A stretch of 41,088 nucleotides of DNA from a virus, in IMG/VR virus record IMGVR_UViG_3300042923_001761, positions 1-41,088 of that record. One strand, given 5' to 3'. A program made the translations under genes and the position numbers. The notes beneath the pieces are model-generated. The model did not search any database and was not told where the DNA came from. It was given only the letters and a program-made list of their open reading frames with translations. This document shows positions 36,372 to 41,088 of the stretch, one piece after another (the stretch's first letter is position 1; each line of letters starts with the position of its first letter).

Positions 36372-36643
36372 CGAGCCACCTTCCCGGCGATGTAGCGGGC
36401 CTCGGCGCTGTAGTAGCGATCGAGGAGGTGGCGGTACGCCTCCGCGGCGTCGACGGCGTACATCGTCGGCCCGGCGAGCAGGGCGCGCGCCGCGTCCTCC
36501 GCCGCCCAGTCCTTCGCGCGGCCGAGCGTCACGAACGCCGACTCGCGGTAATCCGCCGCCGCGCGCTCTCGGGACCGCGCGAGGTACCGCGCCGCGCGGT
36601 CACGCGACTCCTGCTCGCGCGCGTCGCGCTGCGGGCGGGCCAT
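36368..36643 (-). CDS. Small helical protein (91 aa)
   Basis: A 91-aa, highly charged, probably all-helical protein (RDAREQESRDRAARYLARSR, then WAAEDAARALLAGPTMYAVD and AYRHLLDRYYSAEARYIAGK). No family recognised. ATG 36643 shares one base with the upstream stop (TAATG), which supports translational coupling. Early operon, second position after the Xre regulator's downstream neighbour. Confidence 0.72.
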   Translation of the reverse strand: MARPQRDAREQESRDRAARYLARSRERAAADYRESAFVTLGRAKDWAAEDAARALLAGPTMYAVDAAEAYRHLLDRYYSAEARYIAGKVAR

Positions 36644-36867
36644 TAGGCCGCCGCCGCAACGACGGTCAGGCCGCGGCGCGCCGCGATCCTGCGCTCGAGC
36701 TCGGCGAGCGACGGACCCGTCGGGGTGTACGCGCGCCGCGCGGCCTCAGCGACGGGGAGCTCGTCGAGCTGCTGGTACGCGACGGCCAGGGTCTGGCCGG
36801 CCGCGGCGATGCACTGCTCGCGCGTCGGCCGCTGGCCGACCGACGCGCGGATCTGGGACGATGCCAC
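36643..36867 (-). CDS. Small helical protein (74 aa)
   Basis: A 74-aa helical protein: MASSQIRASVGQRPTREQCI, AAAGQTLAVAYQQLDELPVA, then a short linker and SLAELERRIAARRGLTVVAA. No family recognised. GTG 36867 stands behind AGGAAGGAGC. The 90-bp gap between it and the Xre gene stop shows nothing beyond this ribosome site. It begins the long coupled chain of early genes. Confidence 0.72.
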   Translation of the reverse strand: MASSQIRASVGQRPTREQCIAAAGQTLAVAYQQLDELPVAEAARRAYTPTGPSLAELERRIAARRGLTVVAAAA

Positions 36868-36957
36868 GGTGGTGCTCCTTCCTCGGAGTACTGCGGGCGA
36901 CGGCCCTCGCGCGGCTACTTGGCGGTTGAAGCGCGGGGGTCGTCGTGTTGTCTGGGG

Positions 36958-37305
36958 TCACGCGGTGGCCGCGAGCGTCGCGGCGTGGCGGCGCGTGGCG
37001 GAATGCGTTCCGCTTTCCATGGCGGGCATGGGTGTCGACTCGCGGAGCTCGAAGAGGTCCTCCCAGTTCTCGACGCCGAGACGGGCCGCGAGCGCCAGGG
37101 CGAGGTCCTCGGAGATGTCGGCGAGGGTTCCGTTCTCGATGGCCCAAATGGTCGTCTGGGTGCGCCGGACGAGGAAGGCCAGCTCGCGCTGCGTGTAGTG
37201 CTTCATCTTCCTCTTGCGCCTGAACTCGGCCGGGTCCTTGACGTGCATCCAGACCTCCTTCCGGAGACGGGGCGGGCGGCGGCGGGCGCCGGTTCGTGCA
37301 GCCAT
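36958..37305 (-). CDS. Xre-family regulator, Cro-like position
   Basis: A helix-turn-helix protein (HTH_3/Xre) at the head of the early operon and divergent from the candidate repressor, the position of Cro in lambdoid phages. The HTH reads FRRKRKMKHYTQRELAFLVR then RTQTTIWAIENGTLADISED, followed by LALALAARLGVENWEDLFEL. Two starts each have a good ribosome site: ATG 37305 (GGAGG, 6 nt) gives 115 aa with a basic extension, and ATG 37248 (AAGGAGG, 5 nt) gives 96 aa. Its promoter (TTGACA at 37366-37361, TAGCGT at 37344-37339) overlaps two operator elements, so the repressor should shut it off in the lysogen. Confidence 0.87.
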   Translation of the reverse strand: MAARTGARRRPPRLRKEVWMHVKDPAEFRRKRKMKHYTQRELAFLVRRTQTTIWAIENGTLADISEDLALALAARLGVENWEDLFELRESTPMPAMESGTHSATRRHAATLAATA

Positions 37306-37324
37306 CTTGCACCTCCAGTTGTAT

Positions 37325-37425
37325 CGCTGACAAGTGGAACGCTATCCGGTACGCACTAGTTGTCAAGCCGACAACGGGGTTTTTCACCCTCTGAGGTGGC
37401 ACGATGTGCTAGCCACTTGTCAGCG
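37325..37425. promoter_or_regulatory. Repressor intergenic region: three operator elements and divergent promoters
   Basis: Contains a 13-bp perfect inverted repeat CGCTGACAAGTGG (37325-37337) / CCACTTGTCAGCG (37413-37425), 75 bp apart. Midway lies a third dyad, GTTGTC-N5-GACAAC (37359-37375). All share the TTGTC half-site, and the outer pair the CTTGTCA element of the left-end palindrome at 360-379. The minus-strand promoter TTGACA-N16-TAGCGT for the Xre gene lies between the outer elements; a plus-strand promoter may use TTGTCA at 37417-37422. The arrangement suits cooperative binding or looping by the phage repressor. Confidence 0.75.
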
Positions 37426-37479
37426 CTGCTGGTGCACTCGACTACAACAACTTGATCCTTCGAGGGGAGCATCTGTCCT

Positions 37480-38067
37480 GTGAACGCACCTACGGGTCTC
37501 CGCGAGCTGCTTGACCAGGCACTGGTCCAGCGCGACGTCCGCTCTGGGCGACGCCTCGCGGAGATCGCTCACGACGCCGGCTACCCGGTCTCGCACGCGA
37601 CGATCAACCAGATCCGCAGCGGGTCCTACGCCTCGCGACCCTCGGACGACACCGTCCGGGCGATCGCGTGGCTCGCCGGCGTCGCCGAGGAGGTCGCGTT
37701 CACGGCGGCGGAGCTCCCGGTACCCGGGCCCCCGTTCGCGGACGAGCTGCCTCCTGGCGTCGACACGCTGTCGCCGCGGAAGCGGAAGGCCGTCCTGGAC
37801 CTGCTGCGGGTGCTGATCGAGGACGAGGAGCGTGATGGCGATGACCGAGACGCCGCCCCCATCAAGCGGGCCGCGGGGAGCGCGGCCGTCAGCGAGCAAG
37901 ACACCCCGGAGGCCGAGGCATCGGACGACGAGTCGTCCGATGGTCCTCGCAAGCACTGGACCCCCGTGACCGAAGCGGACATCCGAGCAGGCGCCGCGCT
38001 TCCCCGGGCAGAGGGGCACGGACGTAAGAAACGGACAACCGGCAGAACGAAGCCACGGCACACGTGA
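37480..38067 (+). CDS. Candidate immunity repressor (195 aa, no S24 peptidase domain)
   Basis: A 195-aa DNA-binding protein. Residues 6-75 contain a Cro/cI-like helical domain: GLRELLDQALVQRDVRSGRR, LAEIAHDAGYPVSHATINQI then RSGSYASRPSDDTVRAIAWL. The rest is a short helix (SPRKRKAVLDLLRVLIEDEE) and a disordered acidic then basic tail (HGRKKRTTGRTKPRHT). There is no S24/LexA-like cleavage domain, so RecA-driven self-cleavage is unlikely. It diverges from the early operon over a cluster of operators and precedes the integrase region, which supports the immunity-repressor call. GTG 37480 follows GAGGGGAG by about 10 nt. Confidence 0.78.
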   Translation: MNAPTGLRELLDQALVQRDVRSGRRLAEIAHDAGYPVSHATINQIRSGSYASRPSDDTVRAIAWLAGVAEEVAFTAAELPVPGPPFADELPPGVDTLSPRKRKAVLDLLRVLIEDEERDGDDRDAAPIKRAAGSAAVSEQDTPEAEASDDESSDGPRKHWTPVTEADIRAGAALPRAEGHGRKKRTTGRTKPRHT

Positions 38068-38156
38068 GTGGGCAAGAGCGGACGGCAGCGCTGCCGTTGA
38101 TCCCCTGGTTCATGGCCGCGAGTGTGAGCGCCCACACCGACACGAACTGGCGCTGA
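38064..38156 (+). CDS. Possible 30-aa ORF coupled to the repressor
   Basis: A GTG at 38064 overlaps the repressor stop (GTGA) and opens a 30-codon frame, starting VSGQERTAALPLIPWFMAAS. The overlap type matches the coupled genes of this phage, but there is no other support; the frame includes a 16-bp palindrome (ACGGCAGCGCTGCCGT, 38082-38097) that may be the terminator of the repressor gene instead. The rest of the 174-bp gap up to the next gene shows no clear feature beyond its ribosome site. Confidence 0.25.
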   Translation: MSGQERTAALPLIPWFMAASVSAHTDTNWR

Positions 38157-38241
38157 TGTGCTGTTTCCGGCACGATCCGACCACCCCGCGACCTTGCCAA
38201 GCGGGTGAAGTTTCAACGACAAGGAGAGGGGCAGGGGGCCA

Positions 38242-39117
38242 GTGACCAGCAGGAACGCACTGCCCGCAGGAGTGCCGGATCTCGGCGTGGACGACAAGCC
38301 GGGCTGGGAGACGGTGACCGCGCTGATCACGGTCAAGGCGTACCCCGTGATCGGGCGCAAGACGGGCGAGTCGGTGTGCGTCGCCGGCGTGAGGCTCGAC
38401 CGTCCTGAGCGCGAGTTCGTGCGTCTGTTCCCGGTCCCGTTCCGCGAGCTCGCCACCGAGAACCAGTTCAAGAAGTACGCGTTCGTCCAGGTGCGTGCCC
38501 AGAAGGGGATGACGTCTGATCGGCGCCCCGAGAGCCTGCGCCCCGACCTGTCGTCGCTCCGCGTAGGGGAAGTCGTCTCCACAGCGCGCAGATGGCATGA
38601 CCGGTGGGATCTGCTCGACCCCCTCGCTGGAGCGACGACGGCCTGCAGGCTCGCCGCCGCAGCCAAGGTGTCCGGGCAGGATGCGCCCTCCCTGGGGCTC
38701 GTCAAGCCCCGCGAGATCCTCGACGTCACGGTTGCGGACAACCCCGACTACAAGAAGTCGACGGGTCTCGGCGACATGCCGGAGGCCGACCTCTTCGGGA
38801 ACGTCCTGACGCCGCTCGAGGCCACGCCGTTCATCGCGAAGTACCGGTACTACTGCGAGGACTGCACCGGCAACCCCCATCACCAGTCGATCATCGACTG
38901 GGAGGCCGGTCAGCTCGGCCGGCGCCTCCTGCGCGAACACCGCACCGCCGAGCAGGCGCGCGCAGCGATCCGCACACGGTTCCTCGACGAGATGGCGTCT
39001 CCGACCAAGGACACGCACTTCTACCTCGGGAACCAGCACCAGTACCCCGGGAGCTTCATGGTCCTCGGCGTGTTCTGGCCCCCAGCAGGCAGCCGACCGC
39101 TGCCCGGCCTGTTCTAG
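38242..39117 (+). CDS. Unknown Cys/His protein of a DUF488-linked accessory module (291 aa)
   Basis: I assign no family. A 291-aa soluble protein. The N-terminal half has strands VTALITVKAYPVIGRKTGES, VCVAGVRLDRPEREFVRLFP and VPFRELATENQFKKYAFVQV. The C-terminal half has RYYCEDCTGNPHHQSIIDWE (C205, C208, H213, H214, D219, E221) and FYLGNQHQYPGSFMVLGVFW near the end. The Cys/His/Asp/Glu cluster could be a metal site. GTG 38242 has a GGAG-rich leader. Its stop codon TAG overlaps the DUF488 gene's stop in the palindrome CTAG, so the two genes are tightly convergent. The location between repressor and integrase is where prophages carry defence or conversion genes. Confidence 0.82.
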   Translation: MTSRNALPAGVPDLGVDDKPGWETVTALITVKAYPVIGRKTGESVCVAGVRLDRPEREFVRLFPVPFRELATENQFKKYAFVQVRAQKGMTSDRRPESLRPDLSSLRVGEVVSTARRWHDRWDLLDPLAGATTACRLAAAAKVSGQDAPSLGLVKPREILDVTVADNPDYKKSTGLGDMPEADLFGNVLTPLEATPFIAKYRYYCEDCTGNPHHQSIIDWEAGQLGRRLLREHRTAEQARAAIRTRFLDEMASPTKDTHFYLGNQHQYPGSFMVLGVFWPPAGSRPLPGLF

Positions 39118-39578
39118 GCGGGCACGAGCTCCCGCTCGTCGCGCGGCGCCCTTGCGCGCAGCGCGTCCAGGATGAGCGAGCGGTGGCAGCACCGCTCCGC
39201 CGCCTCGAAGCACAGAAGGAGAACCGTGCCCCGAGCCTGTAGCGCCTCGATCACATCGAGCGCCTCCCGCGCCTCCGGAGTCGAGAGCACCTCGTCCGCG
39301 AACCGCTCGCGAGCCTCCCGGCCCTCGGTCGTCGACGTCTCTGCGAAGCCGGCGCGGTTGTCCTTCGGGTTTCCCAGCGCGCGCAGGTGCACGTACTCGA
39401 CCCCCGCGGCCGCGAGCGCCGAGGAGAGTGCTGTCTTCGAGAGACCGCGCTTGCGCGAGATGGGGTTCAGCCGGACGTCGACGACGGCGACGACGCCCCA
39501 GCGGCGAGCGTCGGTGATGAGGTCGTCCACAGATCGACCCTCGTAGCCCCAGCCCATCACACCGTGTCGTACCGTCAT
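39114..39578 (-). CDS. DUF488 family protein
   Basis: A 154-aa DUF488 protein. Diagnostic motifs: VVDVRLNPISRKRGLSK (about 32-48), EYVHLRALGNPKDNR (61-75) and LLLCFEAAERCCHRSLILDA (120-139) with the family's C...CHR. DUF488 members are small soluble proteins of unsettled function; the conserved Arg, Cys and His residues suggest binding of a nucleotide or nucleic acid, which is inference. It faces the 291-aa gene (convergent, stops overlapping) and diverges from the integrase over a 58-bp gap. The start ATG 39578 lacks a strong ribosome site, so it may be leaderless or poorly translated. Confidence 0.88.
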   Translation of the reverse strand: MTVRHGVMGWGYEGRSVDDLITDARRWGVVAVVDVRLNPISRKRGLSKTALSSALAAAGVEYVHLRALGNPKDNRAGFAETSTTEGREARERFADEVLSTPEAREALDVIEALQARGTVLLLCFEAAERCCHRSLILDALRARAPRDERELVPA

Positions 39579-39636
39579 TCGCTGATCGTGTCACGACTCG
39601 GCTCGACCCACCGAACCCACGCCGGAGCCCGTCCCG

Positions 39637-41088
39637 ATGAACAGCAGACAGCCCCACGGCAACGCGTTGCGTGCGCCCCGCGCCGTGCTGTACCTGCGGC
39701 AGTCGACCTACCGCGAGGAGTCGATCAGCCTCGAACTGCAGGAGACCGCCGGCCGCGACTACTGCGAGCGCCAGGGGTACGACGTCGTCGCCGTCGAGCA
39801 GGATCCGGGGATCTCCGGACGCACCTGGAACCGGCCCGCCGTGCAGCGCGTGCTCCACATGGTCGAGGCCGGGAACGCCGACGTGATCGTGCTGTGGAAG
39901 TGGTCGCGCCTCTCGCGCTCGCGCCGGGACTGGGCGATCGCCGCGGACAAGGTCGACGTCGCCGGCGGACGGATCGAGTCGGCCACCGAACCCATCGACG
40001 TCGCGACGAGCGCGGGCCGGTTCGCGCGGGGCGTCATGACCGAGCTCGCCGCGTTCGAGTCCGAGCGCATCGGCGACGGCTGGCGCGAGGCCCATGCCCG
40101 CCGCGTCGCCGCCGGCCTCCCCGCGACCGGCAAGCCCCGCTGGGGGTACGCCTACGACCGCGAGGCGAAGATCCACCGCCCCGACCCCACGACCGGGCCC
40201 GTGCTCGCCGACCTGTACCGCCGGTACCTCGCCGGCGAGTCCGTCTACGCGCTCGTGCGATGGCTCAACACCGAGGGCTACCGCACCTCGGCCGGGTACG
40301 GCCCGAACGGCGGGGGAGGGCTCTGGACCGACCGCTCGCTCCGCCGCGTCATGGACTCCGGGTTCGCGGCTGGACTCATCATCGTCGACGGCGAGCAGCG
40401 CCCCGGCGCGCACGAACCCCTCATCACCGCGGACACCTGGGACGCCTACCGCCTCGCGCGCGGCAACCGACGCGTCCAGCGCGGGAGCGAACGCTCGCAG
40501 TACCTCCTCTCCGGCCTCATCCGCTGCACGTGCGGCAGCCCGATGAACGCCGGCCAGTTCGGGCGCGGCCGCGAGCCCAAGTACCGGTGCCGCGACGCCC
40601 ACAACAAGGGCACCCACGACGGCGGCTACATCACCGCCCGGTACACCGAGGACGAGGTCCTCGCCTGGGTGCGCGACCTCGCCGCCGGCGTCGACCAGGC
40701 CGCGAGCGCCGGGCTCGACGAGCTCGCCGCTCGGCGTGCGCGGCGCGACCCGCTCGGCGACATCGTCCGGCAGCGCCAGGCCCTCGAGGCACGGCTCGTG
40801 CGGCTCACCCGCCAGCACCTCGAGGACGTCATCCCCGAGGGCCCGTACATCGAGCTCCGCGACGAGCTCACCGAGCAGATCGACGCGCTCGCCGCGCGCG
40901 AGCTCGAGGCCAGCGTCGCCGCGACGCGCGCGCCCGCGCCCGAGATCGCGCGGCAGCTCGTCGCGGACTGGGACGTGCTCGGCGTCGAGCACCGACGAGC
41001 GATGCTGCGGCAGATGATCGCGTGCGTCGTCGTCACGCCGGGTCGGCCGCGGGGGAGCGTGCATGTCGTACCTCTGTGGGAGGGGTGA
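39637..41088 (+). CDS. int: Large serine integrase
   Basis: A complete 483-aa large serine recombinase. Resolvase domain: RAVLYLRQSTYREESISLEL with catalytic Ser23, QDPGISGRTWNRPAVQRVL, VIVLWKWSRLSRSRRDW and GVMTELAAFESERIGD. Recombinase domain: GKPRWGYAYDREAKI and YLAGESVYALVRWLNTEGY. Zinc-ribbon domain: LIRCTCGSPMNAG and KYRCRDAHNKG. A coiled-coil C-terminal part (RQRQALEARLVRLTRQHLED) follows. It inserts phage DNA between attP and attB without host factors; excision needs a directionality factor not identified for certain here. ATG 39637 has GGAG 9 nt upstream. attP should flank this gene, probably just beyond the window. Confidence 0.95.
   Translation: MNSRQPHGNALRAPRAVLYLRQSTYREESISLELQETAGRDYCERQGYDVVAVEQDPGISGRTWNRPAVQRVLHMVEAGNADVIVLWKWSRLSRSRRDWAIAADKVDVAGGRIESATEPIDVATSAGRFARGVMTELAAFESERIGDGWREAHARRVAAGLPATGKPRWGYAYDREAKIHRPDPTTGPVLADLYRRYLAGESVYALVRWLNTEGYRTSAGYGPNGGGGLWTDRSLRRVMDSGFAAGLIIVDGEQRPGAHEPLITADTWDAYRLARGNRRVQRGSERSQYLLSGLIRCTCGSPMNAGQFGRGREPKYRCRDAHNKGTHDGGYITARYTEDEVLAWVRDLAAGVDQAASAGLDELAARRARRDPLGDIVRQRQALEARLVRLTRQHLEDVIPEGPYIELRDELTEQIDALAARELEASVAATRAPAPEIARQLVADWDVLGVEHRRAMLRQMIACVVVTPGRPRGSVHVVPLWEG

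Follow-up and report, generated by a model that had tools for sequence, protein, structure and literature searches.

The window analysed here, a 41,088-nucleotide virus record (IMGVR_UViG_3300042923_001761) to whose full length all coordinates refer, is a temperate phage of an actinobacterium that carries a cassette of two adjacent genes between its repressor and its integrase. The genes encode a 291-amino-acid (aa) protein, modelled with two oligonucleotide/oligosaccharide-binding (OB) folds, and a protein of the DUF488 family. We found that they form a real, conserved, and mobile two-gene module and that both proteins match components of the PADLOC two-gene candidate PDC-M19. The pair thus adds a phage-borne example to a candidate defence type already on record, and is not the undescribed system that an earlier note on this DNA had envisaged. 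Our assessment leans, by no more than a modest degree, to a mobile PDC-M19-type accessory module that is carried as prophage cargo for defence against phages, with the OB protein binding nucleic acid and the DUF488 protein processing its ends.

Pairing, conservation, and mobility of the two genes

We retrieved 80 genome loci and nine viral-contig loci with a member of the 291-aa family. A DUF488 gene lies directly beside the family member in 79 of the genome loci and in all nine viral loci, and the pair recurs on mobile elements, which bears out the earlier expectation that the two families are recurrent neighbours and are kept as a unit. The retrieval patterns for these loci had been derived from DUF488-bearing loci, and the retrieval was repeated on genome samples with the PADLOC profile alone; eight of the nine loci obtained (two of the nine in genomes already sampled) again contain DUF488. 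At the ninth (L117) the place of DUF488, convergent as before, is taken by a gene of its sister family DUF4326 (E = 6e-20). This exchange of DUF488 for DUF4326 suggests that the class of cysteine enzyme is what the OB partner needs. None of 20 control loci contains DUF488. DUF488 is found in 36 of 41 Streptomyces genomes (53 copies, approximately one per 6.6 Mb), a density at which the chance of adjacency is about 0.1% or less.

Two gene orders occur among the relatives, in which DUF488 is either downstream and convergent or, in many relatives, upstream and co-directional. Convergence had been proposed as the mark of a unit; it is not essential, but the overlapping stop codons do recur, with the exact CTAG common to 18 of the 45 convergent loci and TTAG to three. 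In pairwise comparisons the two proteins diverge in step (r = 0.75 vs. 0.00 ± 0.08 for shuffles), a correlation to which shared ancestry contributes. The opposite strands, which preclude an operon, could be taken to indicate unrelated chance neighbours, yet the near-complete adjacency in two gene orders, the correlated divergence, and the recurrent CTAG refute this explanation, whose probability we regard as negligible. In addition, the sibling prophage L100 carries the same gene pair, and both open reading frames (ORFs) are real genes because they are under purifying selection relative to it, albeit on the basis of few substitutions in either gene (291-aa gene, 10 synonymous and 2 non-synonymous, dN/dS 0.065; DUF488 gene, 8 synonymous and 6 non-synonymous, dN/dS 0.28).

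The distribution of the module is patchy (13 of 150 Streptomyces species and, counting the centre genome, 5 of 296 genomes from the phylum as a whole), and its carriers are phages, plasmids, and tRNA-borne islands. In 17 Streptomyces loci the pair closely follows tRNA-Pro(CGG); the sequence to the left is conserved, and that to the right varies for the most part. Four of these 17 loci contain, on the far side of the pair, a repeat of the tRNA end (22-54 bp), which fits an integrated island, and an integrase adjoins the pair in several of them. Two copies of the pair (L020 and L022), about 55 kb apart, are present on one contig of Mycobacterium interjectum.

Folds and conserved residues

The 291-aa protein has no match in Pfam or NCBIfam but matches phrog_25907 (E = 2.4e-56) and PADLOC PDC-M19B (E = 4.5e-47, profile positions 6-262 of 269). 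Its AlphaFold model, based on 48 aligned sequences, is confident (predicted local distance difference test (pLDDT) score 92, predicted TM-score 0.90), and the best solved matches in Foldseek are the tandem-OB proteins RPA, HIN-200 domains, CST, and LEF-3. Residues 19-111 of the model align with PriB/SSB (Z 9.0, root-mean-square deviation (rmsd) 2.8, 86 residues). The modelled structure is of the double-OB, RPA/SSB/HIN-like kind, and the arrangement of its two OB folds appears particular to this protein because whole-length TM-scores are low. No homology to a housekeeping enzyme was detected for it, and sequence searches of the PDB with both window proteins and with profile A1 returned only noise.

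The cluster of Cys, His, Asp, and Glu residues that had been pointed out in this protein (YCEDC/NPHHQ) is present, but the only positions invariant across phyla are Y201, D219, and W220, with E221 nearly so. Its Cys and His residues are missing in cyanobacterial and Pseudomonas relatives, for which reason the cluster as such was rejected as a catalytic site. A zinc knuckle at this position is possible in the actinobacterial proteins.

The assignment of the second protein to DUF488 was confirmed (PF04343, E = 5.4e-28, 98.5 bits vs. a cut-off of 22.2), and it also matches PF22751, the active DUF488-N3a family (36.1 bits vs. a cut-off of 27). PDC-M19A is matched in its DUF488 part only (E = 1.6e-25, profile positions 151-283 of 294). 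The structural model, for which confidence is again high (pLDDT 93), resembles cysteine phosphatases (Z 8.2-8.9), including SsoPTP, laforin, the RNA 5'-phosphatase of a baculovirus, and a capping enzyme, a resemblance that takes in archaeal and dual-specificity phosphatases. The highest Z in VIA, 8.9, is that to SsoPTP and laforin (over 119-123 residues with an rmsd of 3.3-3.5), and the best E in Foldseek is only 4e-3. As judged from the model, the protein has a rhodanese/cysteine-phosphatase fold. All family-invariant residues, among them D34, R36, S41, K48, H64, R75, C123, E125, C131, H132, and R133, are kept in the window protein. C123 and R133 form an invariant C-x9-R, while R129 is not conserved; the family does not conserve the C-x5-R active-site loop of protein tyrosine phosphatases proper.

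The DUF488/DUF4326 branch of the rhodanese-phosphatase superfamily was reportedly treated by Burroughs and Aravind in 2023, who are said to have assigned the clade a predicted role in processing DNA ends within conflict systems. The window protein resembles this branch in its Pfam matches, its cysteine-phosphatase-like fold, and its invariant C..E..CHR residues, but differs in the C-x9-R spacing that its family has instead of a conserved C-x5-R loop. DUF488 is very common and has no assigned function; the module provides it with an obligatory partner of recognisable fold and with a case of partner exchange with DUF4326.

Known systems, proposed function, and rival explanations

The likeness to PDC-M19 consists in the match of both proteins to the component families, the adjacency of the genes, and the full-length match to PDC-M19B. 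The window DUF488 protein differs in leaving the N-terminal region of PDC-M19A uncovered, and the window pair is on a prophage. Its genes are convergent, an orientation that many relatives share and others do not.

A second known family is related to the 291-aa protein, which had been called unassigned. Pfam PF22557 (DuOB) has no match in the window, and 4 of 16 relatives of the 291-aa protein match it below the cut-off (best E = 6e-4). An hhalign comparison of the 291-aa family with DuOB gave 91% probability and E = 1e-6 over residues 37-164, i.e. the first OB fold and the linker only, and this profile-level similarity points to homology between the two. Independently fetched DuOB loci contain two DUF488 genes (L143, L145, Agrobacterium, and Allochromatium) or DUF488 together with DUF4326 (Citrobacter and Acinetobacter). 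As in the window, a dual-OB protein is thus encoded beside enzymes of the same clade, with the motifs C-x-A-G, R-x-P-V, and S-L-x-x-[IV]-[KR]-P in common. The window protein differs from DuOB in a longer and different second half, and is accompanied by one enzyme and not two. The DuOB loci and the profile comparison indicate a common plan of one dual-OB protein with one or two DUF488/DUF4326 enzymes. On the Allochromatium plasmid pAt1 (L148), the operon of DuOB and two DUF488 genes lies between the CRISPR-associated genes csx16 and csm6.

Variants of the pair are also found on archaeal plasmids. The Sulfolobales plasmid pBEU9E1 encodes a ParB-fused DUF488 protein beside an OB protein. In L016, a fusion of ParB, helix-turn-helix (HTH), and DUF488 domains is located upstream of a member of the 291-aa family. 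On two Sulfolobales plasmids (L008, 4840-5343, and L016, 4852-5340), the next gene has an E-x-D/E-x-K pattern that, by eye only, is like that of PD-(D/E)xK nucleases; it has no match in Pfam. A tentative proposal, which we hold to be possible though rather less than probable, is that PDC-M19 and DuOB systems constitute one broad immune class. In it, a dual-OB protein would serve as the nucleic-acid sensor, and the cysteine-dependent enzymes that modify ends would be interchangeable (DUF488, DUF4326, and perhaps a nuclease in Sulfolobus); temperate phages would carry such a system to keep other phages out through a novel chemistry of DNA or RNA ends.

For the window pair itself, nucleic-acid processing or defence, as the earlier note had supposed, remains the best guess. 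The pair is probably expressed in the lysogen, where the 291-aa protein would most likely bind nucleic acid, either as single strands or at its ends, and the DUF488 enzyme, which may form a complex with it, would most likely carry out a cysteine-dependent phosphate transfer or end-processing on the nucleic acid so held. The nucleic acid of infecting phages would be damaged or blocked as a result, making prophage-borne defence the most likely purpose. This reading builds on the gene pair as computed, with its obligatory pairing, conservation, co-occurrence, and mobility, and it draws further on the folds, on conserved residues that are all intact, and on the replacement of DUF488 by DUF4326 in one locus. 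Defence genes are also found around the pair. At E <= 1e-15, 77 PADLOC families found a match among the 145 genes near it, with many families matching the same gene. Restriction enzymes of types I and IV are represented, as are Shedu (SduA) and Wadjet (JetB). The control, 140 genes from 20 arbitrary actinobacterial positions, gave 19 PADLOC matches, mostly from one DISARM locus and UvrD helicases.

Several points weigh against a role in defence. The raw counts of defence genes in the neighbourhood are suggestive only, and several loci of the pair have ordinary neighbours. One relative of the 291-aa gene (L033, 7989-8789) has neither DUF488 nor DUF4326 beside it. Similarity to OB and phosphatase folds is no proof of function, and we know of no catalytic activity for this DUF488 clade. 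Furthermore, PDC-M19 was not mentioned and no anti-phage test was found in a literature search, and the PDC set of PADLOC, derived via guilt by embedding, is mostly unvalidated (PMC12988326). The neighbour of the L033 gene encodes a 996-aa protein resembling the R subunit of type I restriction enzymes.

Alternatively, the pair may serve its own mobile element by repairing, protecting, or processing the ends of phage or plasmid DNA, or by countering host restriction. Its presence on phages, plasmids, and tRNA-borne islands, the OB folds of replication/repair type, and the fusion of DUF488 to a ParB-type partition protein beside a family member on pBEU9E1 are in line with such a role, which we nevertheless consider unlikely, as the phages Kita, Howe, and Maja replicate without the pair and its position by the repressor is on the lysogeny side, outside any replication cluster. 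Somewhat more doubtful is an action on small molecules, whereby DUF488 would act on derivatives of nucleotides or of ADP-ribose, removing or transferring their phosphate, with the OB protein as its regulator in a signalling or alarm circuit. An archaeal ParB-DUF488-HTH fusion binds CTP (PMC12704722), and a small-molecule substrate is possible because ADP-ribose phosphate has been proposed as a substrate of DUF4326 (PMC9503650), but DUF488 is here obligatorily paired with a double OB fold of the type that binds single-stranded DNA, and NAD-processing genes were not seen beside the pair.

A toxin-antitoxin or addiction module stabilising the prophage is improbable to a still greater degree. Although the pair comprises two small genes on mobile elements, a VapBC pair occupies the corresponding slot in phage Howe, and DUF488 partners in Streptomyces have Xre-type HTH domains, convergent genes lack the co-transcription usual for such modules, neither protein matches toxin or antitoxin families in Pfam, NCBIfam, or PADLOC, and the combination of a dual-OB protein with two enzymes is also found as three-gene operons.

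The cassette in its phage context

The coordinates, strands, and convergence of the two ORFs and the overlap of their stop codons (4 bp) were read in the sequence as described before, and the location of the pair between repressor and integrase likewise holds (Table 1). The window integrase has 72% DNA identity to that of Arthrobacter phage Maja. A promoter scan found no promoter-like site.

Table 1. Positions of the cassette genes, associated sites, and flanking genes in the window
Feature	Position	Strand	Basis
Phage repressor (context, directly 5' of cassette)	37480..38067	+	phrog_12831 transcriptional repressor, E=2e-20; DNA similarity to Gordonia phage immunity repressors
Possible ribosome-binding site of 291-aa gene, purine-rich AAGGAGAGGGG	38221..38231	+	Inferred from sequence reading
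291-aa dual-OB-fold protein, GTG start (PDC-M19B family, phrog_25907)	38242..39117	+	Profile matches, AlphaFold model, OB-fold matches
CTAG, overlapping stop codons of the convergent 291-aa and DUF488 genes	39114..39117	.	Sequence; recurs in 18/45 convergent relatives
154-aa DUF488 protein (PDC-M19A match), rhodanese/cysteine-phosphatase fold	39114..39578	-	Profiles, alignment, model; conserved C123/E125/C131-H132-R133 intact
Serine integrase (context), divergent from DUF488 gene	39637..41088	+	PF00239, PF07508, PF13408; phrog_95

Positions 36633-41088 were compared with L100, to which the part from the C-terminal half of the repressor through the pair and the integrase has approximately 91-100% DNA identity. 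The low dS had raised the possibility that the pair moved separately from one phage to the other, which was rejected because this high-identity block is not confined to the pair but runs from the repressor through the integrase. For the N-terminal half of the repressor and the divergent HTH gene, the likeness is only about 55-87%, and on sequence comparison the two phages look heteroimmune. A ParB-type protein (ParB_N and HTH_ParB) is encoded in the early region of the window phage (32228-33664).

The proposal that the pair occupies a variable slot for prophage cargo agrees with its distribution among Gordonia phages. In the repressor-integrase slot of the Nymphadoravirus group, Eviarto and Nymphadora carry the pair and Kita carries nothing, while WelcomeAyanna and Bosnia have another convergent two-gene cassette in the same slot and the related phage Howe has VapBC; in Arthrobacter phage Maja the pair is absent. 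Gordonia phage CarolAnn is likewise a temperate phage of an actinobacterium with two cargo genes next to its integrase and immunity repressor; these repressor-side prophage genes, gp43 and gp44, confer defence (PMC6426606). However, gp43/gp44 are Rex-like, are co-transcribed with the repressor, and belong to other families than the window pair; they do not appear to be related to it, since neither window protein retrieved CarolAnn from the phage collection. The occurrence of the pair in Gordonia phages that are tractable in the laboratory, with Kita as a natural relative with an empty slot, makes the predictions on defence and chemistry testable on existing isolates.

The competing Gordonia cassette (L141, 2462-4329; L142, 1696-3548) is convergent with overlapping stops, and one of its genes is annotated as a methyltransferase in WelcomeAyanna. 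A restriction-modification pair was not confirmed for it, and no relatives were found in the PDB. Finally, the DUF488 homologue gp42 of Nymphadora (NC_031061.1) is annotated in RefSeq as a 'HipA toxin', apparently wrongly.
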